Part shown: one piece after another, positions 23,976-37,898 of the stretch
Numbering within the stretch: the stretch's first letter is position 1
Layout: the number at the start of each line of letters is the position of its first letter
Origin: Candidatus Obscuribacterales bacterium
Lineage (GTDB): Bacteria; Cyanobacteriota; Vampirovibrionia; Obscuribacterales; Obscuribacteraceae
Length of the DNA: 64,000 nucleotides
NCBI GenBank assembly: GCA_019744775.1
Contig: JAIETZ010000005.1
Coordinates: forward strand, 1 to 64,000
Reading direction: 5' to 3'
Translations under genes and position numbers: made by a program
The notes under the pieces: generated by a model
What the model was told of the DNA's origin: nothing
Seen by the model: the letters and a program-made list of their open reading frames with translations, nothing else
Database searches by the model: none

Positions 23976-26777
23976 TCAGCTATGCGCCGATCCGATTAGC
24001 TGTCCGCATCCGTTGTATTGTTCCAGCGTACAACACTCGATTGGCATCCAGCCAAAATATCCGCAGACCCAGCGCCTGGAGACCCAATAAGAGCCCGCGC
24101 ATGGGTTGGGCGGTGGAGTGTAAGGGGGCACCGCTGGTGGTGGCGGCGGAGGAGGCGGCGGCGGTGGTTTTACAACGGGGCATGTCACAGCCCACTCTGA
24201 AGCTAGGACTGGACAACCGCTGGGATCCGAGCACCACGCCTTGTCATAGCTTGTAGCAGCAGAATAGTGTTTAGCTGCCGACGAGGGATTCGGCGGTGGT
24301 GAATTGGGTCCTGTGGTCGCAGGATAAGCATTGGCATTGAGGTCACGTCCTTGTACCTGCCAAGTAACTGTGCTGCCATCTTTTTCTTTGATGATAATCG
24401 CTTGCGAGTTCTGATAACTTGCCTGTCCCTGGGCAATCGGCACGTTGGCAAAAGGTGTCGTTTGCACATTGAACAATTTGATATTGCCTGATCCGTTAGG
24501 CAAAACTGTTCCTCTGGCTGTCTTGATAGTGCCACCATCTACTTTGAAGAGCAGCTTGAAGTTGTTATTCGGCTTGGCGCTCTGAGCATAAGCCGGTTGC
24601 AGTATGTGTGACTGCGAGTCATCCAAATGGCCGATTGCTGGGTCACCCTCGTGTTTAAAGACCTCCAGCTTGCTCTTAAATTCGTTGCCAACCTTTTGAG
24701 TCGCCACACCCCAATCAGCAGCTGGTGCACTTGGGTCTTGTCCGGTTGAAATTGGTCCATCTGTCAGAAGGTCTTGAACGGTTGCAGCGCGGCCAATCGG
24801 ATAAAAGTTACTGCCCATAACAACATAGTGTCTTTCGTTGACCTTACGGACACCGCCGCCAGTTAGAGCTTTTAAGTTGTCGTACATTGCTGTTGTCGTC
24901 GCGCTTACATAGCAAGCATTATTTAGTGCATGATCCAATCGTGGATGGTCCGCCAATACCTGGGCTCCTTCTTTCGTCTTTTCACGTTCAAGAGCCTCGT
25001 TGAATTCAGATTCTGTATTTAGATCGGGCACTGGACCGGGCTTGCCTGTAGCATCGTTATAGAGCTTTGCAAATGCCTGGATACCGTGTTTAAAGGTCTC
25101 TATTGCTCGTTGGTTGGTCAGCATCATCTCATTGGTCATTTGGAACATGTCCGAACCTGGATTGCCGTCCATAGTCACATAGCGACCGTCATCCGTGAGC
25201 ACACCCATGTATGCTCTTGGTCCGATAACCGGATCAGCAGGCAAGTATCCCCACATGCGCGCTTGTTGGCGCTGGTAGGCGTCTTGATTTTCCATCCATC
25301 TAAGTAAATTTCTAGGATCATCGCTGCCTGTCGGATCACGCATGCTTTCGCTGATAATCAGCGCCGGCGTCGTTGTTCCATTCACGCGACCGGTCTCGGC
25401 ATAAGCAGGTGGCACCCAATCATTATTATGTGACGTGTACGTATTAGGACTGCTATTGCCGGATAAGGCGTATGCCTTGATGTCAGCCTTTAGCGCTTTC
25501 ACAAGTGCATCCGGGTTGGCTCGCAAGCTTACTGACTTGAGCCAGTCATAAGTCAAAAACGCAAGACTAATGCTGGGATCGTCATTGGCTTTGCCGGCGA
25601 TACCTTTGTAGTTGGTCGCCACGAGTGAACCATTACCTGGCACCGGGCCGTTGCTTGCCGTAAACCAATTGCCCTTGCTCGGCGCATTCCAATTGGCATA
25701 AGTGCTGGTTCCGCTGTTGTCTAGTGTTGAGGCATTCATGATGCCGTCGACGCCTTTATTGAATGTCAGACCATTGCCCGGTTCAGTTGGAAAACCTGCT
25801 CCGAAACCAACGAGCAAAGTGCCCGTTGCCGGGACATAAGCGCCTCCACCGCCGCCTCCACATTGCGCATAAGCAACCGTGCGGATGGCTGTCGTTGGTC
25901 TGACTTTTGAGTGCGGTGCAATTCCTTTTACGCCTTCGCTGACGGTTACTCTAACAGCAACAGGTATTTCAGATGCAGTAGTTGTGCGGAATGACCCATT
26001 TGGTACCAGTCGGCAATCCCAAGTCATTGGGACGAATCGAACGTTGGTGCCGTTGACCCCTGGTACTGGGTAATCTACATCGGGTCGGTAGCAGCGTCTG
26101 TTTGCGTTGTCGACAAAGCAATTTCCGCTGCTGTAAGCAATAACATCGCCGCTGGCTGATTGTGCATTATCACCATAAGGCATGTTTGTTGTTGTTTCGC
26201 CGGTACCGGCTGGAGCATTCACGGTGCCTGGATCTATAAGGATGGTGTATGACGTTGAAGAGTCACGTCCCATGCGGTGTTGATTCTCGTCGTAAATCCT
26301 TTTCGCATTGGCTACGACGTTAATTGCCGTGCCGTTTTTATCGTACGCGTTGGCACCGCCGCCTAGAGCGGAAACAAGTTTGTCTCTTAGAATGTCGCGA
26401 GCAGTATTTGCCAGACTCAGATCATGCTTCACCAAATACAAAATATTGTTCTTCGAATTATCGGAAAGCTTTGATGCCACCAAAGCGTTAAGGCGCAGTT
26501 CAGCATAAATAGTGTTGATGCTTTTGACAGGATGCGCGGAGGTGGTGCTTGCCGGATCATCAACCAATCCTATCCGACCGAGTGGACCGTCGACAACAAT
26601 CCGGCACATGTCCACCACTACCTGTAATGCAGCCGAGTCGGTGGCGTTCATTGTTTCTTTGTGGACGCCTGTCAATTGATTTAGGTTGAGTATAAAGAAG
26701 GCGAACATCGCCAGCATGACACCCAGTGTTACAAGAACGAGTGCCAGAGTATTTCCTGACTTACGGCGGGTTCGCAT
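23976..26777 (-). CDS. TadG-like pilus-assembly/surface protein with polyproline and Cys-rich tail
   Basis: 933 aa from the ATG at 26777, preceded by GAGGTG five bases upstream. The N-terminus (MRTRRKSGNTLALVLVTLGV...) has a charged start and one hydrophobic segment, followed by LNQLTGVHKETMNATDSAALQ. This matches the Flp-pilus TadE/TadG-like N-terminal region. The middle 800 residues are Gly/Asn/Pro-rich with no domain I recognise; a GGGGGGAYVPATGTLLVGF stretch lies about one third along. The C-terminus has an 11-proline run, then PPYTPPPNPC and a Trp/Cys-rich end (SRRWVCGYFGWMPIECC). No other tad genes are present here. Function is probably cell-surface or pilus-associated (inference). An upstream GTG at 26783 is the longer alternative. 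Confidence 0.65.
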   Translation of the reverse strand: MRTRRKSGNTLALVLVTLGVMLAMFAFFILNLNQLTGVHKETMNATDSAALQVVVDMCRIVVDGPLGRIGLVDDPASTTSAHPVKSINTIYAELRLNALVASKLSDNSKNNILYLVKHDLSLANTARDILRDKLVSALGGGANAYDKNGTAINVVANAKRIYDENQHRMGRDSSTSYTILIDPGTVNAPAGTGETTTNMPYGDNAQSASGDVIAYSSGNCFVDNANRRCYRPDVDYPVPGVNGTNVRFVPMTWDCRLVPNGSFRTTTASEIPVAVRVTVSEGVKGIAPHSKVRPTTAIRTVAYAQCGGGGGGAYVPATGTLLVGFGAGFPTEPGNGLTFNKGVDGIMNASTLDNSGTSTYANWNAPSKGNWFTASNGPVPGNGSLVATNYKGIAGKANDDPSISLAFLTYDWLKSVSLRANPDALVKALKADIKAYALSGNSSPNTYTSHNNDWVPPAYAETGRVNGTTTPALIISESMRDPTGSDDPRNLLRWMENQDAYQRQQARMWGYLPADPVIGPRAYMGVLTDDGRYVTMDGNPGSDMFQMTNEMMLTNQRAIETFKHGIQAFAKLYNDATGKPGPVPDLNTESEFNEALEREKTKEGAQVLADHPRLDHALNNACYVSATTTAMYDNLKALTGGGVRKVNERHYVVMGSNFYPIGRAATVQDLLTDGPISTGQDPSAPAADWGVATQKVGNEFKSKLEVFKHEGDPAIGHLDDSQSHILQPAYAQSAKPNNNFKLLFKVDGGTIKTARGTVLPNGSGNIKLFNVQTTPFANVPIAQGQASYQNSQAIIIKEKDGSTVTWQVQGRDLNANAYPATTGPNSPPPNPSSAAKHYSAATSYDKAWCSDPSGCPVLASEWAVTCPVVKPPPPPPPPPPPAVPPYTPPPNPCAGSYWVSRRWVCGYFGWMPIECCTLEQYNGCGQLIGSAHS

Positions 26778-26901
26778 ATTCACACCTCATGGTAAAACCG
26801 GCAAATCGTTGTCGCGTAAAGGGAAAGTGCCAAAAGGTTTATACCCGTAGCGACTCAATATTAAACCAAGCTAATAAACTAACTGTTTATTGTCAAAACA
26901 A

Positions 26902-26934
26902 AGACCCTGATTCCGTTTGAGGGAATCAGGGTCT
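26902..26934 (-). terminator. Rho-independent terminator of the four-paralog operon
   Basis: AGACCCTGATTCC pairs perfectly (13 bp) with GGAATCAGGGTCT across a 7-base loop. On the minus strand the hairpin is followed by TTGTTTTG. It lies about 90 bases past the last paralog. Confidence 0.8.
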
Positions 26935-27023: not shown

Positions 27024-27473
27024 CTAGTAGTCTTCGTCGTAAGGGACGCGATAGGCTACGCCTTGGAATAGCATGCGATGGCTACCGTTGTATGGGCTTG
27101 GATAGCCCATGAAGCCGTGATTGGCTCCGTAACCAAAACCATGCATTGTTCCGTAAAGTGCCCCTTGGACTAGACCTACCGGCCCACCAGTGAGACCGCC
27201 GGCTACTAACTCGTAAACACCATCTTCTTTACCGAGGTTGCGAGCAACCATTTTAGTAAAGCCAATGGCGCCTTTTATTCCATCTTGAAATGCTCCAGTT
27301 GGAACATCCCAAAGAATGGCCGAGACAGCATTGACGACACGCACTGGAAGGTACCAAAGCTCGTACTGCACCCTGGCCGAATCTGGTCTTTCAGGATAAG
27401 CTGAAGCCATATTTGCCAGTCCACAGATGAGAGCCATAGCTGCCAACGTTGCGGACAGAACTTTTTTGCGCAT
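27024..27473 (-). CDS. Small secreted paralog 4 (glycine-rich, unknown family)
   Basis: 149 aa with a signal peptide (MRKKVLSATLAAMALICG..., cut near MASA). The mature part follows the pattern shared with the next three genes: a YLPVRVVNAVSAILWDVP segment, G-A-x-x-DGIKGAIGFTK, then a LGKEDGVYELVAGGLTGGP segment, then VQGALYGTMHGFGYG. Unlike its paralogs it ends with a longer YPSPYNGSHRMLFQGVAYRV tail instead of a KPFS motif. It is the last gene before the terminator. I do not recognise the family; the regular glycines suggest helix packing or membrane association (inference). Confidence 0.75.
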   Translation of the reverse strand: MRKKVLSATLAAMALICGLANMASAYPERPDSARVQYELWYLPVRVVNAVSAILWDVPTGAFQDGIKGAIGFTKMVARNLGKEDGVYELVAGGLTGGPVGLVQGALYGTMHGFGYGANHGFMGYPSPYNGSHRMLFQGVAYRVPYDEDY

Positions 27474-27607
27474 TGTTTTTTACCACTTTCTAGCTTGTAA
27501 AGCTCCGGCTCCAGCTTTCGCTTTCGCCTTCGCTGCTGCTCCGTTGCGGCTTGCTCATCGCAACCCTTCACGTCGCATGTATTACAAAGATCCGAATCCA
27601 AATATCA

Positions 27608-28012
27608 CTATTTTTCTTCGGAGGTCATGTAAGACCAGCGGCTAAATGGCTTTTTCCATCCGTACGCGACACCATGCCACCACCCGTGGTGGACGCCGTA
27701 GAGGCTACCCAGCACTAAGCCGGGCGACCCCCCGATTGGTGTGGCCATTGCTAATTGAGCGGCACCCTTCTCATCGCCGAATTTACCGGCGACGTGAGTC
27801 GTACCTTTCAAGAAGCCATGGTATCCATCATCAATCGGAGCGTTGATAGCACCGCACCAGATCCCTGCTGAGACTGCTCCGAGCAGTCTTACAGGAGCCT
27901 GCAGAACCCAGTTAACCGGTTTGGCTTCGTAATCCATAGCCAAGGCCGGGGTTACTGATGTTACTGCTACCGCTAGTGAGCAAAGCATGAGACCCAGATA
28001 TTTTCTGTTCAT
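27608..28012 (-). CDS. Small secreted paralog 3 (glycine-rich, unknown family)
   Basis: 134 aa. The signal peptide is MNRKYLGLMLCSLAVAVTS, cut near ALA. The mature protein has an APVRLLGAVSAGIWCGAINA segment, DDGYHGFLKGTTHVAGKFGD, then EKGAAQLAMATPIGGSPG and LGSLYGVHHGWWHGVAYGWK, ending KPFSRWSYMTSEEK. The GDE-G, G-P-G, YG-HG and KPFS landmarks line up with the neighbouring genes. Function unknown. Confidence 0.75.
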   Translation of the reverse strand: MNRKYLGLMLCSLAVAVTSVTPALAMDYEAKPVNWVLQAPVRLLGAVSAGIWCGAINAPIDDGYHGFLKGTTHVAGKFGDEKGAAQLAMATPIGGSPGLVLGSLYGVHHGWWHGVAYGWKKPFSRWSYMTSEEK

Positions 28013-28086
28013 TTATTTGCACTCACTTTCTAGAGGAAAGCAGTATATATGCGTTGTACCTACCAGGCAATAGCGAAAGGTACTAT

Positions 28087-28467
28087 TTAATCCTCGGACT
28101 CAGGAACAATATAAGACTCTGTGCTGAACGGCTTGTCCCAACCAGCTGACCATGCATGACGGCCACCGTAGATGATACCAGCCGGTACGCCCCAGACTAC
28201 GCCTGTTGGTACGCCTAAAGCGAAACCAGCGAGGTTCTGGAAGAGACCTTTTTCGTCACCGAAGGCAACAGCCAAACGCTTTTGGATTTTCTTTGGTTGG
28301 TACCAAAGAGAATTCAAAGCAACACCTTCCGGCTCATCGATGATGAGGGCTGTTGTTCTGCCCAGGTAAGACATACCTGAACCGACAACTCCATCAGCAT
28401 ATGAAGGAAGAGCAAAACCAGCTGCAATTGCTGCTGCTGCGATTGTAGTAAGAACCTTGTTTTTCAT
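28087..28467 (-). CDS. Small secreted paralog 2 (glycine-rich, unknown family)
   Basis: 126 aa from the ATG at 28467, which has AAGGTGG about 9 bases upstream and begins a clean signal peptide (MKNKVLTTIAAAAIAAGFAL, cut near SYA). The frame extends 27 codons further upstream but that part looks non-coding. The mature part has EPEGVALNSLWYQPKKIQKR, FGDEKGLFQNLAGFALGVP, then a GVVWGVPAGIIYGGRHAW segment and KPFSTESYIVPESED. It aligns with the flanking genes. Confidence 0.75.
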   Translation of the reverse strand: MKNKVLTTIAAAAIAAGFALPSYADGVVGSGMSYLGRTTALIIDEPEGVALNSLWYQPKKIQKRLAVAFGDEKGLFQNLAGFALGVPTGVVWGVPAGIIYGGRHAWSAGWDKPFSTESYIVPESED

Positions 28468-28572
28468 TTTATTCGTCCACCTTAAATTGGGAAAGCGAGG
28501 ATGGTTCCATAGAACCACCCCCGATACCACTATCTCTTTATTACTCAATGAACTCGTACTTCATTTGGATAA

Positions 28573-28962
28573 TTACTCATCCTTGAAAGTAAACGAATCC
28601 TTGCTGAACGGCTTTTCGTAGCCGGTCTTCAGACCGTGCCAAGCACCGTCAAAGCAACCATAGATAGCACCACCAGCAGCACCGAACGGTCCGCCAACGA
28701 TACCACCGGCCCATTGCTGGTACATGCCGTCTTCGTCACCGAGTTTACCAGCTACCCATTTGGTAGCCATGATTGCTCCTCTGGTGCCATCTTTGGTGGC
28801 GCCTTCTGGAACTCCGATTACGGTACTAACTGCTGATCCCGCTACTTTCCACGGAATCATCACAATGCTCTTAAATGTGTCGTCATCAGCATAAGACGGC
28901 GCCACGCAGGTGCCGGCAATAGCTGCAGCGATCATTAAAGAGGACGCTAACTTTTTACGCAT
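28573..28962 (-). CDS. Small secreted paralog 1 (glycine-rich, unknown family)
   Basis: 129 aa from the ATG at 28962, which has GGAG six bases upstream; the ATG at 28974 is the alternative. The signal peptide is MRKKLASSLMIAAAIAGTCV, cut near SYA. The mature protein shows MIPWKVAGSAVSTVIGVPEG, ATKDGTRGAIMATKWVAG, KLGDEDGMYQQWAGGIVGGP, AGGAIYGCFDGAWHGLKTGY and EKPFSKDSFTFKDE. It is the first gene of the run and the clearest form of the shared pattern. Confidence 0.75.
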   Translation of the reverse strand: MRKKLASSLMIAAAIAGTCVAPSYADDDTFKSIVMIPWKVAGSAVSTVIGVPEGATKDGTRGAIMATKWVAGKLGDEDGMYQQWAGGIVGGPFGAAGGAIYGCFDGAWHGLKTGYEKPFSKDSFTFKDE

Positions 28963-29005
28963 GCCAATCTCCATCTCTTAGCAATCAACTTAAACGATTT
29001 TGTTG

Positions 29006-29036
29006 AATGTCATAGGACTAGTAATCCTAAGACATT
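29006..29036 (-). promoter_or_regulatory. Imperfect 12-bp hairpin upstream of the paralog operon
   Basis: AATGTCATAGGA pairs with TCCTAAGACATT (one mismatch) over the loop CTAGTAA. It lies about 45-75 bases before the first paralog's start, so it is either an operator dyad or a 5' UTR hairpin. Confidence 0.45.
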
Positions 29037-29445
29037 ACCAATTGTACCCATTTTCTTATTAAGATCCACACTGTTGTATCTACTGACAAATGGTGTCATT
29101 GCGCACTGAATGATGCAAACTCAGTATTCAAGCCTCTTTTAGAAGCTGTAGTTGATAATCTTCGCGTCTGAGAATTTGAATTTAACGAAACAATTGATTC
29201 TCAAGCGATGGTGATTCGATCCTGTTTTGATATTGATCAGATATTACGACTCGCGCCAGCTCTAACTTTCGAGACTTTTCAAGAATTTGATTTCGATCGA
29301 TTTTCTCTCTTGGAAATCCAATTTTTCCCTCTTGAGTAGTCGAGGTTAATTCTGTTCGCAAGCGGTTAATTCTGCCGCCAAGGTAACGCGAGATTACGAC
29401 AGATATAAATCAATGGTCGTTATCGGACACTCCTGCCTGGCGATC

Positions 29446-29597: not shown

Positions 29598-30935
29598 TTA
29601 GGTTCCGAAGTGTTCCGTGGGTTGCCACTTGAAGCCTTGCGGGCGGAACATAATGCGCCACAGCGACAAGAAAATACACGGCATCCAAATTACATTGGCG
29701 TAGAAGGTCAAGCAAGCCGTCAACCAAAGCGTTTCCGGAATCGACTTATGTCTATACAGACGAATTCCATTGAAGAAGTTGAATTGGCAAACAAGCGCCA
29801 CAGCCATCAACACAATTACGAAAAAGCGCGGATAGTTCGGACCGCCAACAATAAAGTTGATAAGTTCGGAAAGCAGTTCCATCGCCACAAGCGGCGGCAC
29901 GGTAAATTCACCAACAAACGCCATCAAGTCAAGTCGCTCGGTAAGTGACAGACGCGATGGCGCATTCAACGGCAGCACGTAGTCTAAATAGCGACGAATA
30001 CTGCCCTCAGCCCAGCGCTTGCGCTGCCGATAAAGTGACTTCCAGGTTTCAATTGCTTCTTCATATACACAAGCAAAGGGACAAAAACGAATGTCCCAGT
30101 TTGCAATGAGCAAGCGCATGGACAAATCCAAATCGTCAGTGATCGTCTTGTTATTCCAGCCGCCCACATCGATTAGCGCGTTGCGTTTGATAAGTTGTCC
30201 GTCGCCGCGCAATTCGACAGCGCCGCCTATCAAGTCGCGCCCCATTTGCCAGAAGGCATCGACAGCATATTCAGATGCCTGGCACTCGACTAAAAAGCCC
30301 TTTTGATTCTCGTATATCTTCTTCTGCACTTGCACCGCACCGACATCTTCCGGCGCCAGTACAGGCAATGTCAGCCTCAAGAAATCCGGAGCTACATAAG
30401 CATCGGCGTCAAATACACAAACAACTTCCGCTCTCGATAAAGCAAGCGCTTCATTGAGGGCTGCCGACTTACCTGGATACGAACCGGGCAGTCTATTCAA
30501 AACGCGCAAATTTGGAAACTCGCCTTTTAGCTGTTCAAGTATCTTTGGCATTTCGTCTGTTGAATTATCATCAATTACCCAAAGCAAATAATTCGGATAA
30601 TCAATCTTCAGCATATTGCGCACGGTTTTCTCAATTACACGCGCTTCGTTTTTGGCCGCTATAAAAAGATCGACTGTAGGCTGCCATTCCGACTCGGCAC
30701 CTTCTTTGACCGTAGTGCCGAACTCATTATGCGGGTGCGGGCGATCTTTTGCGCGATTGAGTTTCTTGTGCCAACGTTTTTGTGCTGCCAAAAGCCAAGC
30801 ACAGTGCGAAATCATCATGATGCAAATGCCGCAAATCAATATAAGAATGAACGGACCCGGCACAAAGTAATCGATGTACTTGAGTGTCAGCCAGGCGCCT
30901 ACGAAAATAGCAATTAATAGAATGCGATTAAACAT
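29598..30935 (-). CDS. Family 2 glycosyltransferase, processive (membrane)
   Basis: 445 aa. Two N-terminal membrane segments (about 5-20 and 28-48) are followed by a GT-A domain with all the BcsA/NodC-like landmarks: IDDNSTDE (first Asp pair), FDADAY (DxD), TDDLDLS (catalytic Asp) and RQRKRWAEGS (QxxRW). Three or more C-terminal membrane segments follow (LMAFVGEFTVPPLVAMELL onward). This architecture fits a processive beta-glycan synthase that polymerises and moves a polysaccharide across the inner membrane; the sugar cannot be read. It follows the MJ1255-type glycosyltransferase on the same strand by about 70 bases, so the two may act together. Confidence 0.85.
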   Translation of the reverse strand: MFNRILLIAIFVGAWLTLKYIDYFVPGPFILILICGICIMMISHCAWLLAAQKRWHKKLNRAKDRPHPHNEFGTTVKEGAESEWQPTVDLFIAAKNEARVIEKTVRNMLKIDYPNYLLWVIDDNSTDEMPKILEQLKGEFPNLRVLNRLPGSYPGKSAALNEALALSRAEVVCVFDADAYVAPDFLRLTLPVLAPEDVGAVQVQKKIYENQKGFLVECQASEYAVDAFWQMGRDLIGGAVELRGDGQLIKRNALIDVGGWNNKTITDDLDLSMRLLIANWDIRFCPFACVYEEAIETWKSLYRQRKRWAEGSIRRYLDYVLPLNAPSRLSLTERLDLMAFVGEFTVPPLVAMELLSELINFIVGGPNYPRFFVIVLMAVALVCQFNFFNGIRLYRHKSIPETLWLTACLTFYANVIWMPCIFLSLWRIMFRPQGFKWQPTEHFGT

Positions 30936-32383: not shown

Positions 32384-33703
32384 CTAATAGATACCTTCTA
32401 AACGTTCTCTTCTAGTTGTGCGAAGCAGATGATAAATGCTTGAGAGGAGCATTGGTACTCCAACAATTATCAAAGTTGTGGACACTCCGCCGGGTAAATT
32501 ATCAGCGGCTACACCGGCCAGTATAACCGGAATTGTAGAGGCTGCAGACATTGCTGTATTTTGAGCCCCAAACACCTTGCCACGCAAGTTTTCCGGCACG
32601 GCTGCCTGCAACGATGCTTGTGTGGGCACGGCAACCATGGCGCAGCAAACGCCGGTAAATGCTGAAAGTATCAGTGCGCTGCCCACAAATCCCCCATGGA
32701 ACGCCATTTCCGATAGTCCTAACTCCGGCAATAGAAGTGTCTGAATGAAGCCTAACGATCCAAGCATGCTCATGAAGAGTCCCATGCCGGTGAAGCCCAG
32801 ATAGGCAAGTGCTGTTGGTTTCATCTTTTGACCATAGTGAGCCGTGGCGAAATTACCTACACACATGCCCAGACCGGCAGCGGCAACTATCCAGCCGAAC
32901 TGGAATGGCTTGATGTGCAAAACCTGTTGGCTCAAAGCAACAGCAATAATATTGAGCGTAATAATCGTGCTGAATAAAATTGTGATTTTCATGATTGCAC
33001 GAAATACTGTGGCGTTGCTGGAAATGTACGATAGCCCGAATCGTAATTCTTCCCACCAGGGTTCGCGATTGGTTGTATGCGGCACATTGTCTTTGACAAA
33101 ACACAAGAGCAGCGCGGCAATAAAGAAGCAGCATGCAATAAAAAATGGCGCATCAGCCAGACCAATGTGAGAAATAATTGGTTCTCCCACTGCGAACCCA
33201 AAACCAAGCGCAATCATCATTGTTGTAAAAAAGAGCGAATTGGCGTGATACAGATCTTCGTGCTTCACCAGTCTGGGAATAGAAGAAGTCTCAGCTGGTG
33301 CAAAGAATTGTGCACCGATTGATGTGAGAAATGCTAGGAAATAGGCAAGCATAGGATGCCTTTCTACAGAAGGCATAGATACAAGTGCCACGCAAATTCC
33401 ACGGACAACGTTTGAGAACACCATGACTGATCTATTAGATGCGCGATCAACATAAACTCCGGCAAGTGGTGAGAGCAACACAGCCGGAATAGTAAAGGCA
33501 ACATACAACCAACTAGTCATTTGCGCAGCACCGGCTGGCGCATGAAACTCTGTCGGCGCTGCTTGTGACAAAGTCTCTTGTGCTGTCAAAACCGCCACAA
33601 ACAACACGAACACAGCGCGGTCTGCTAGCTGTGAGAAGATTTGCGCTACCCACAGGAACATGAAGTCCCGGTTGCGCAACAGCGATTTGTAGCCTTCAAT
33701 CAT
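32384..33703 (-). CDS. MFS transporter
   Basis: 439 aa with about 12 predicted hydrophobic segments and the MFS loop signature SPLAGVYVDRASNRSVMVFS between segments 2 and 3. It resembles the MFS_3 / LplT-like exporter branch (start YKSLLRNRDFMFLWVAQIFS). Its ATG overlaps the lpxA stop by one base (TAATG), so it is translationally coupled to the lipid A genes. That suggests a role in envelope lipid handling, but the substrate is not visible. The C-terminus ends beside a palindromic repeat. Confidence 0.8.
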   Translation of the reverse strand: MIEGYKSLLRNRDFMFLWVAQIFSQLADRAVFVLFVAVLTAQETLSQAAPTEFHAPAGAAQMTSWLYVAFTIPAVLLSPLAGVYVDRASNRSVMVFSNVVRGICVALVSMPSVERHPMLAYFLAFLTSIGAQFFAPAETSSIPRLVKHEDLYHANSLFFTTMMIALGFGFAVGEPIISHIGLADAPFFIACCFFIAALLLCFVKDNVPHTTNREPWWEELRFGLSYISSNATVFRAIMKITILFSTIITLNIIAVALSQQVLHIKPFQFGWIVAAAGLGMCVGNFATAHYGQKMKPTALAYLGFTGMGLFMSMLGSLGFIQTLLLPELGLSEMAFHGGFVGSALILSAFTGVCCAMVAVPTQASLQAAVPENLRGKVFGAQNTAMSAASTIPVILAGVAADNLPGGVSTTLIIVGVPMLLSSIYHLLRTTRRERLEGIY

Positions 33704-34542
33704 TAAATGTCGTCGGAAGGAAACTCGTCCATGATTTCAGCGCCAGGTATGGCAATACCTGCGCAACCACGCTTGCTTGATTTGAAGAATGCAACAATTT
33801 CCTGGACTTCCGGGAATTGTTCAATTTCTTCTTCGATGCGAGCCAGCGCTTGTGACACGTTGAGACCCGAGCGATACAAGAGTCTGTAAGACTCCTTGAC
33901 CGCTGTGCGAACTGTCTGTCCAGCTCCTGCGCGGCGCAAGCCGATGACGTTAACGCCACGTACCATTGCCGGACGACCGTCGCATGTTGTAAACGGCGGC
34001 AAGTCGGATCTTGTGCCGGTCATGCCGGAAAGCATCGCTAAGCGTCCAACACGAACGTGCTGGTGGAAGATACACATTCCGGACATCACGACACCGTCGC
34101 CGATAGTTACGTGTCCTGCCATCATCACTGAATTAGCGAGAATGACGCCTTTGCCCAGTTTGCAGTTGTGAGCAATGTGCACGTAATTCATCAAGAAACA
34201 ATCGTCGCCGATTTCGGTGAAGCCTTCGACTGTGGCTCTATGGATGGTTACGTATTCGCGAATAGTAACTCTATCGCCAAGAATGACGCCTGTCGGCTCG
34301 CCCTTGTAGCGGAAGTCTTGCGGCTCGAGCCCGATGGAAGCACCGGCATAGATTTTGCAATCTTTGCCGATGGTTGTGTGTCCATCGATTACGGCATGAG
34401 CACCAATTTTTGTTCCGGCGCCGATTTTTACATTTGGTCCAATTACTGCGTATGGTCCAATCTCGGCTGCTGGATCAATCTGAGCGCCGTCTGCGATTAC
34501 TGCTGTTGAGTGAATGCGAGTGGTCGTTGTGTTAATGCTCAT
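33703..34542 (-). CDS. lpxA: Acyl-[ACP]-UDP-N-acetylglucosamine O-acyltransferase
   Basis: 279 aa. Hexapeptide repeats of a left-handed beta-helix fill residues 10-190 (IHSTAVIADGAQIDPAAEIG and following). NYVHIAHNC carries the catalytic His, and HQHVRVGRLAMLSGMTGT matches LpxA closely. LpxA performs the first step of lipid A synthesis, so the organism probably makes lipopolysaccharide. Usual length is about 262; the extra residues are a GIAIPGAEIMDEFPSDD tail. An AAAGGAAAT ribosome site precedes the ATG. It lies 17 bases after fabZ; lpxC, often adjacent in other bacteria, is not in the window. Confidence 0.95.
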   Translation of the reverse strand: MSINTTTTRIHSTAVIADGAQIDPAAEIGPYAVIGPNVKIGAGTKIGAHAVIDGHTTIGKDCKIYAGASIGLEPQDFRYKGEPTGVILGDRVTIREYVTIHRATVEGFTEIGDDCFLMNYVHIAHNCKLGKGVILANSVMMAGHVTIGDGVVMSGMCIFHQHVRVGRLAMLSGMTGTRSDLPPFTTCDGRPAMVRGVNVIGLRRAGAGQTVRTAVKESYRLLYRSGLNVSQALARIEEEIEQFPEVQEIVAFFKSSKRGCAGIAIPGAEIMDEFPSDDI

Positions 34543-34559: not shown

Positions 34560-35021
34560 TTAGGCTTCATTTTCACGCTTGATCATTGCGAACGAAATTT
34601 CGCCTTCACAAGCGACTTTGTCACCGACGCGTGCAATACCTTTGAGACGTCCAATAGGACCCTTCATTTTGATGAGTTCAACTTCGAGTTCCAGTTTGTC
34701 ACCAGGAATAACCATGTGACGGAATTTGAAACCATCAATGCCCGTAAATACGCCGAGATATTCTTTATATTCAGGCTTTACCAGAATTGCGATACAAGCT
34801 AATTGTGCCAATGCCTCTACCATCAGAACGCCAGGCATAATCGGCTTGAATGGAAAATGTCCTTCGAAAAACTGCTCGTTGGCAGTCATGTTTTTGTATC
34901 CGATGGCCTTGTGTCCAGGCTCAATGTAAGTAACTCTATCGACAAGCAAAAACGGATAGCGGTGTGGCAACAACTTCTTAATCTGGTTGATGTCCAATTC
35001 CTGCGAAATAGTCGCGGTCAT
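34560..35021 (-). CDS. fabZ: 3-hydroxyacyl-[ACP] dehydratase FabZ
   Basis: 153 aa from the ATG at 35021, which has an A/G-rich site (GAGAGAAAAG) upstream. The 19 residues open upstream do not look like FabZ. LLPHRYPFLLVDRV and FFEGHFPFKPIMPGVLMVEA hold the hot-dog-fold signature with the active His and Glu. It removes water from 3-hydroxyacyl-ACP in fatty acid elongation. Pairing with lpxA is the common arrangement, balancing membrane lipid and lipid A. First gene of the fabZ-lpxA-MFS unit, divergent from folE. Confidence 0.95.
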   Translation of the reverse strand: MTATISQELDINQIKKLLPHRYPFLLVDRVTYIEPGHKAIGYKNMTANEQFFEGHFPFKPIMPGVLMVEALAQLACIAILVKPEYKEYLGVFTGIDGFKFRHMVIPGDKLELEVELIKMKGPIGRLKGIARVGDKVACEGEISFAMIKRENEA

Positions 35022-35149
35022 ATTTCTTTTCTCTCTCCAAATTTCAAAACGTCGGTCCCATGGGGCGCCTGACAGCACCAGCTCTCAGCTGGTCTTAACC
35101 ACCCAAGTATAACAAGAGATCTTGTGAAATACAGTTTATGTATAACTTC

Positions 35150-37076: not shown

Positions 37077-37898
37077 ATGACAGCAACAAGTGCCAAAGGC
37101 GAAAAAGGCACAGATAAATACGGCGGCACTCAAGGCAGCCCCGTAACTTATAACAAGTATTTGCACGTCAACGAGCTAAAGACCCTGCAAGTCTGTCTCT
37201 CCGACCCCCCTCACCACGACGAACCTCTATTCATCATCATCCACCAGACCTACGAACTCTGGTTCAAGCTCATCCTGCACGAATTAGACACCGTAAAGTC
37301 CTTGCTCGCCGAAGACAACATCCGCCGCGCAAATTTCTTCCTGCGTCGCGTTGTCGCAATTCTCAAACTGCTCGTCCAGCAAATCCACATTCTCGAGACA
37401 ATGTCTCCGCAAGATTTCCTCGGCTTCCGCCACAATTTAAATCCGGCCTCTGGTTTTCAGTCGAGCCAATTTCGCGAAGTCGAATTTACACTAGGTGCCA
37501 AAGACGCACGCATGCTTGAGCACTTCAAGTCAGATGCTATCGCCTATGAAGGTCTCAAAGAACGCTTTGAGCAACCATCTATCCAAGATGCATTCACTTC
37601 TTTATTGAAAAGAAACGGCTTCACTCTTCCCGAAGGCGACGAAGACGCTCGCGTTAAGGAATTGGCAAAGCTTTATAGAAACGACGACACTTATGCCGAC
37701 TTATCAGATCTGGCAGAATTACTTGTCGAGATCGACGAACTAGTCTATCTCTGGCGCGTCAATCACGTCACCGTCGTCGAGCGCATCATAGGATTCAAAC
37801 GCGGCACAGGTGGCTCAGAAGGCGTCGGCTATCTACAATCCACGCTAACCAAGCGCTGCTTCCCGGATCTTTGGAAAGTAAGAACCGTCCTCGAGTAA
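37077..37898 (+). CDS. kynA: Tryptophan 2,3-dioxygenase
   Basis: 273 aa. TYNKYLHVNELKTLQ, PLFIIIHQTYELWFKLILHE, FFLRRVVAILKLLVQQ and NPASGFQSSQFREVEF are hallmark TDO segments for heme and tryptophan binding. It opens the indole ring to N-formylkynurenine, the entry step of the pathway encoded at 47-57 kb. AAGGAG lies 6 bases before the ATG. Length is normal. It is separated from the other kynurenine genes by about 10 kb holding a toxin-antitoxin pair, efflux genes and a metal module. Confidence 0.95.
   Translation: MTATSAKGEKGTDKYGGTQGSPVTYNKYLHVNELKTLQVCLSDPPHHDEPLFIIIHQTYELWFKLILHELDTVKSLLAEDNIRRANFFLRRVVAILKLLVQQIHILETMSPQDFLGFRHNLNPASGFQSSQFREVEFTLGAKDARMLEHFKSDAIAYEGLKERFEQPSIQDAFTSLLKRNGFTLPEGDEDARVKELAKLYRNDDTYADLSDLAELLVEIDELVYLWRVNHVTVVERIIGFKRGTGGSEGVGYLQSTLTKRCFPDLWKVRTVLE

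Follow-up and report, generated by a model that had tools for sequence, protein, structure and literature searches.

An uncatalogued array of four exported glycine-zipper proteins next to a processive GT2 synthase in Obscuribacterales

Helices that span the outer membrane are known from SlyB and TraT, which do so as oligomers (PMC13067283, PMC11733297), TraT forming a helical outer-membrane barrel (PMC11733297), and from Wza, a helical outer-membrane pore (PMC9601211). In E. coli NfrB, the exopolysaccharide synthase of the NfrB-NfrA system, GT2 and MshEN are joined in one protein (PMC8669469). CdzC and CdzD of Caulobacter are small secreted proteins with extended glycine zippers that are encoded side by side and accompanied by type I secretion and an immunity gene (PMC5380434). 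The four-gene array analysed here can be set against each of these. Like the glycine-zipper outer-membrane proteins (PF13436, PF13441, PF13488; SlyB; TraT, PF05818), its products are exported and have GxxxG-repeat or amphipathic helices, but they lack a lipobox, a beta-sandwich and an OmpA domain, reach no Pfam cut-off, and form a set of four paralogs in fixed order. As in NfrB-NfrA, a processive GT2 goes together with exported partners and with an MshEN domain of cyclic-di-GMP signalling, but GT2 and MshEN are separate genes and the exported part would be four small helical hairpins. The resemblance to Wza and the other OPX alpha-helical exporters would hold if the four proteins form a helical outer-membrane polysaccharide conduit; they differ from these in size and fold and have no OPX domain, and a pore is in their case hypothetical. 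With CdzC and CdzD they share small size, secretion, extended zippers and adjacent genes, whereas a Sec signal and strict conservation set them apart.

The array lies in a window of 64,000 nucleotides from a Candidatus Obscuribacterales genome (class Vampirovibrionia), where four consecutive ORFs occupy the minus strand at 27024-28962 in the reading order A-B-C-D (Table 1). The original prediction, made from the letters of this window, had described four tandem paralogous genes for secreted proteins of an unrecognised family, and that description held. When A was searched against the whole genome, D was recovered with E=1.6e-18, C with 3.1e-15 and B with 3.1e-10; contigs 3 and 4 hold four more, diverged copies. 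The other window copies are 30-36% identical to D, and alignment of the four leaves 16 invariant columns. Signal peptides are plain by eye in all four, with a KK n-region, a hydrophobic h-region and then SYA, ALA or ASA. A lipobox is missing, as neither the four window proteins nor the relatives that were inspected have a cysteine in the cleavage region. Judged by these features, the genes are true paralogs with signal peptides.

Most of the landmarks ascribed to all four proteins are borne out in A, C and D, but B is without several of them, namely W-x-P, DGxxG and YGxxHG. The shared core of the four copies is instead a small residue at each fourth position of helix 2, together with A...[LF]G[DNK]ExG. 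The fourth copy had been described as having lost the KPFS end and gained another tail. Its tail does differ, but D copies across the whole order have this tail conserved, and it is not a local loss. Across the class, family members have in common a signal peptide, the zipper, a turn of GDxxG type and, in most cases, a tail resembling [KD]P[FW][ST]xE; KPFS is therefore likely to be the ancestral end, and the D tail to have been derived and then fixed.

An HMM search had been put forward as a check. Scanned against Pfam and NCBIfam, none of the four window proteins scored above a model's cut-off, and a scan of 83 orthologs and paralogs against the same collections gave weak, scattered matches only. 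The subthreshold matches of the 83 members were mostly to glycine-zipper families (Romo1, Tim17, TraT and Gly-zipper_OmpA); those to PF13436, PF13441 and PF13488 likewise fell below the gathering cut-off. Membership of Romo1, Tim17, C19orf12 or CHD5 was rejected, as the matches are subthreshold and reflect glycine-rich helices. A mobile origin of the array was also rejected, with no match among the plasmids or phages searched.

The glycine pattern of helix 2 was examined by a permutation test on the 83 sequences, in which period 4 alone stood out (p=2e-4, the floor of 5000 permutations). Seven of the eight zipper positions in A are glycine in 95-100% of these sequences and the remaining one, residue 86, is a small residue in 100%; in D all eight positions are invariant in 28 orthologs. 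Small residues are also favoured in helix 1, at 42, 46, 54, 59, 71 and 75. Pfam glycine-zipper families are marked by a helix of hydrophobic or semi-hydrophobic character with GxxxG repeats. The A-D sequences share this trait, and on this basis A-D carry an extended glycine zipper, with GxxxG repeated over eight steps in helix 2. AlphaFold2 modelled A as two helices joined by a turn at the conserved GDExG, with a pLDDT of about 90, and gave the same two-helix plan for D, the conserved tail of which was modelled without confidence. A two-helix hairpin is accordingly the predicted fold of A-D. This was the structure prediction that had been proposed as a further check; Foldseek searches of the PDB with the A and D models returned no solved relative (E>1). 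Hydropathy in the mature parts peaks at only 1.2-1.6, and membrane insertion is therefore uncertain.

Family members were found in 48/48 genomes sampled from the order, and in most of them A-B-C-D follow one another co-directionally in an unchanged sequence, with gaps of 28-161 bp. Counted by match strength, the array is present in 22 genera across two families, which agrees with the clustering in related genomes that had been named as support. Among 386 genomes sampled from the phylum, matches fell only within the same class, bar one weak match (E=2e-4) over a 46-residue stretch; from these searches the glycine-zipper family appears so far only in Vampirovibrionia, although distant members in other phyla may have escaped a scan of genome contigs that relied on one peptide pattern. 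The named relatives of the window are MAGs of Candidatus Obscuribacterales. Two loci, L039 and L053, come from MAGs deposited as Chloroflexi and Proteobacteria; they carry the same array with Obscuribacterales-type sequences, and the records are probably mislabelled. Other parts of the class have lone, diverged members, none of them near a GT2 in the short flanks read. In another family of the class (L066:5872-8722 and L067), a single diverged member lies just upstream of a PBP1a-like (transglycosylase/transpeptidase) gene.

A phylogeny built from 102 proteins gave one group for each copy, with support of 64 for A, which is weak, 99 for B, 83 for C and 100 for D. The sister family is represented within each of these groups, which places the duplications before the split of the two families. 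The copies are under purifying selection (dN/dS 0-0.22). A-D thus appear, from their sequences, to be ancient paralogs that are not interchangeable. The array, the GT2, the MFS gene and lpxA were all missing from four genomes (G003, G021, G427 and G429). Because lpxB is kept in 4/4, a joint loss of the array with lipid A is not concluded, linked assembly gaps being as likely.

The gaps between the genes in the window are 105, 74 and 134 bp, in keeping with the spacing of 75-135 bases on one strand given in the original prediction, and the 13-bp terminator it reported lies where expected, downstream of D. In a terminator scan, the only strong minus-strand candidate was this one, downstream of the array; the intergenic gaps from A to D gave none. 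Ahead of gene A, the ATG at 28962 follows a leader, GATTGCTAAGAGATGGAGA, that is conserved across the aligned genera. Together with the conserved TACAAT element, this leader supports a single array promoter and ATG 28962 as the start; the ATG at 28974 falls inside a conserved Shine-Dalgarno stretch, AGAGATGGAGA, which also favours 28962 as the start of copy A. A scan for the -10 pattern alone gave no more hits than chance. On the conservation between genera, TACAAT is the probable promoter of the array itself, separate from that of the GT2. An upstream hairpin had also been claimed. The 15-bp inverted repeat is present, but it is genus-specific, since three other genera in the alignment do not have it, and the leader folds no better than shuffled sequences (z -0.77). 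The repeat is a possible operator. A regulatory RNA in the leader was rejected: Rfam gave no match there, its sole match being a subthreshold microRNA model inside gene B.

Table 1. Features of the array and its surroundings in the window
Feature	Position	Strand	Description
Gene A	28573..28962	-	129 aa; signal peptide, predicted helix 1 (27-74), GDEDG turn, predicted helix 2 (80-116), KPFSKDSF tail
Gene B	28087..28467	-	126 aa; most diverged copy; KPFSTESY tail
Gene C	27608..28012	-	134 aa; conserved mature start DYEAKP; KPFSRWSY tail
Gene D	27024..27473	-	149 aa; same predicted hairpin; GYPSPxxGSHxMLFQGxxxxVPYDxxY instead of KPFS
Glycine zipper of A	28621..28707	-	Residues 86, 90, 94, 98, 102, 106, 110, 114
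Glycine zipper of D	27114..27200	-	Residues 92, 96, 100, 104, 108, 112, 116, 120
TACAAT, -10-like	29041..29046	-	Within stretch conserved between aligned genera; TAAAAT in three
Inverted repeat, 15-bp	29006..29036		Leader/promoter
Intrinsic terminator after D	26902..26934	-	13-bp stem; kept in same-genus loci L038 and L039
Processive GT2 synthase	29598..30935	-	Membrane helices at both termini; DAD, TDD and QRKRW motifs; constant neighbour
lpxA (lipid A)	33703..34542	-	Frequent upstream neighbour
fabZ	34560..35078	-	Frequent upstream neighbour
TadG-like protein (by eye)	23976-26783	-	935 aa; no Pfam/NCBIfam match; next to array in this genus only

The constant neighbour of the array is a GT2 gene. 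In a scan of genome contigs for array loci, made with one single peptide pattern as query, the GT2 was upstream and co-directional in 28/28 loci, two of them cut by contig ends. It also adjoins the array in L024-L026, L031, L113 and L114; four loci count as additional to the scan, three of them from the sister family. The protein has the marks of a processive GT2, namely membrane helices on either side of DxD, [ST][DE]D and QxxRW motifs, and its QxxRW is conserved in nine relatives. It resembles PgaC and BcsA below their equivalog cut-offs; as a PgaC/IcaA PNAG synthase it scored 132-149 bits against TIGR03937, which has a cut-off of 422.3 bits. Within the family to which the window belongs, most loci have fabZ, lpxA and an MFS gene ahead of the GT2. 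In the sister-family genome G024, lpxA is on another contig, and dapF and an ftsQ-like gene take the place of fabZ-lpxA. As the GT2 and the array stay together through this replacement, GT2-A-B-C-D is the minimal conserved unit.

Overall, the neighbours (fabZ, lpxA, GT2, murF, dapF and ftsQ) form an envelope setting. The array had been regarded as a dedicated secretion or envelope cassette; the envelope half of this stands, but no secretion transporter is present at the array, so that dedicated secretion does not. In 19 loci the next downstream gene encodes a tandem MshEN protein of the cyclic-di-GMP type, followed in 12 by murF; most genera have such a downstream gene. Two members tested against NF053729 passed its 38-bit cut-off with 98 and 83 bits. 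Compared by eye with the published binding consensus (PMC5013675), the 24-residue RLG...Q motifs of the downstream protein have some key R, G, L and Q positions replaced. In the window's genus the MshEN ortholog is absent from the array site, and the TadG-like gene is found instead. Stand-alone tandem MshEN-type proteins (for example at L044:6637-7935, L113:10536-11789 and L114:9535-10845) are greatly expanded in Obscuribacterales, with up to 28 matches per genome as against one in the genome of the window, and the adjacency is therefore suggestive but not decisive. The genes beside the GT2 and the MshEN gene yielded no TPR beta-barrel protein. The glycine zipper, the helical hairpin, the constant GT2 and the frequent MshEN neighbours did not figure in the original prediction. 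Elsewhere in the window lie a calpain-family cysteine protease (PF00648; 18695-20155, plus strand), a 30% identical relative of which adjoins a dispersed zipper-family gene near L097 elsewhere in the genome, and a tryptophan 2,3-dioxygenase-like gene (37077-37898, plus strand; 259 of 391 bits against TIGR03036).

Our main reading, to which we assign a probability of roughly 0.4, is that A-D assemble through their glycine-zipper helices, probably in the outer membrane, and act as a conduit, anchor or scaffold for the surface polysaccharide of the GT2. Each protein would be exported by Sec, cleaved and folded as a two-helix hairpin. The glycine stripe of helix 2 would allow tight packing, probably into a hetero-oligomeric helical assembly of the four, and this assembly, placed in the outer membrane, would serve the polymer made by the adjacent processive GT2. 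In most genera the downstream MshEN-type protein may place the unit under cyclic-di-GMP control. Export is indicated by the signal peptides and the packing of helices by the zipper hairpin, that is, by sequence and model. Beyond these, we infer a defined hetero-assembly from four paralogs each conserved in its place, a probable outer-membrane location from the moderate hydropathy and the diderm-LPS envelope setting (PMC4040986), and service to a polysaccharide from the constant processive GT2 neighbour. Several observations weigh against this reading: neither model has a solved relative, the hydropathy peaks are low, the array seems to have a promoter separate from that of the GT2, single members elsewhere in the class did not lie near a GT2 in the short flanks read, and the MshEN gene is missing beside the array in the window's genus. 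A stronger version, in which A-D are a heteromeric alpha-helical outer-membrane conduit and hence a new type of polysaccharide exporter, with a separate GT2 and often a stand-alone MshEN regulator, ancestral to Obscuribacterales, is in our estimate improbable.

The same proteins could brace the outer membrane in general, as SlyB-like rings or patches acting independently of any polysaccharide, the proximity of GT2 and lipid A genes then reflecting no more than a shared envelope locus. SlyB transmembrane rings do guard the outer membrane (PMC13067283), the neighbours fabZ, lpxA, murF, dapF and ftsQ belong to different envelope pathways, and the class also contains isolated, diverged members, of which one type lies beside a PBP1a-like gene. 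Yet the adjacency to the GT2 persists even when the remaining envelope genes change, the separate conservation of four paralogs points to a defined hetero-complex, and the array proteins have no lipobox, unlike SlyB; we consider a general stabilising role the main rival, though somewhat unlikely. Amphipathic hairpins polymerised into a periplasmic or cell-wall lattice or matrix, with no membrane span, would suit hydropathy values below those typical of transmembrane segments, the conserved polar tails (KPFSxxS[FY], and PSPHSGSH in D) and the dapF, ftsQ, murF or PBP1a-like neighbours. Extended glycine zippers, however, come mostly from membrane helices and aggregating proteins (PMC5380434), and a structural role of this kind seems to us decidedly unlikely.

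Two further explanations fare much worse. Surface-bound two-component bacteriocins acting through glycine zippers are suggested by the small, secreted, tandem proteins of the array, which recall CdzC/CdzD (PMC5380434). The signal peptides are nevertheless of the Sec type and not type I secretion leaders, Pfam/NCBIfam annotation of the neighbours revealed neither a type I secretion nor an immunity gene beside the array, and strict conservation under purifying selection contrasts with a sporadic distribution, so that we regard this as the least credible of the alternatives. The original prediction had offered, as a distant guess, the exosortase-associated TIGR04073 proteins. These are small and secreted, and what they have in common with the array proteins we take to be a general resemblance in size and Gly/Pro content. 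The adjoining GT2 is weakly similar, below cut-off, to exosortase-associated glycosyltransferases. The array proteins themselves have no sequence match to TIGR04073: 0/83 members matched at E<=1, the 50-bit model cut-off was not reached, and 0/386 phylum genomes passed it. Divergent members of TIGR04073 are thus very improbable, and on present evidence the array is neither a member of that family nor a secretion cassette.

Vampirovibrionia, the nonphotosynthetic sisters of the cyanobacteria, are for the most part uncultured, and their envelope is poorly characterised. The family and the anatomy of the array are solid: the genes make up a genuine array and an old family, absent from the catalogues and belonging with glycine-zipper envelope proteins, for which the link to a surface polysaccharide is put forward from the gene neighbourhood. 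Since the four genes have stayed side by side in over 20 genera, in every case downstream of a sugar-polymer synthase gene, and fit no family described so far, their products are probably an unrecognised component of the cell surface. An exported four-gene family in fixed order in two families, joined to a polysaccharide synthase, marks a core machine of the envelope that has escaped the curated databases. Should the hairpins prove to cross the outer membrane, they would add to the few alpha-helical outer-membrane proteins, and if A-D move or hold a polymer, they would represent a new route of export or anchoring.
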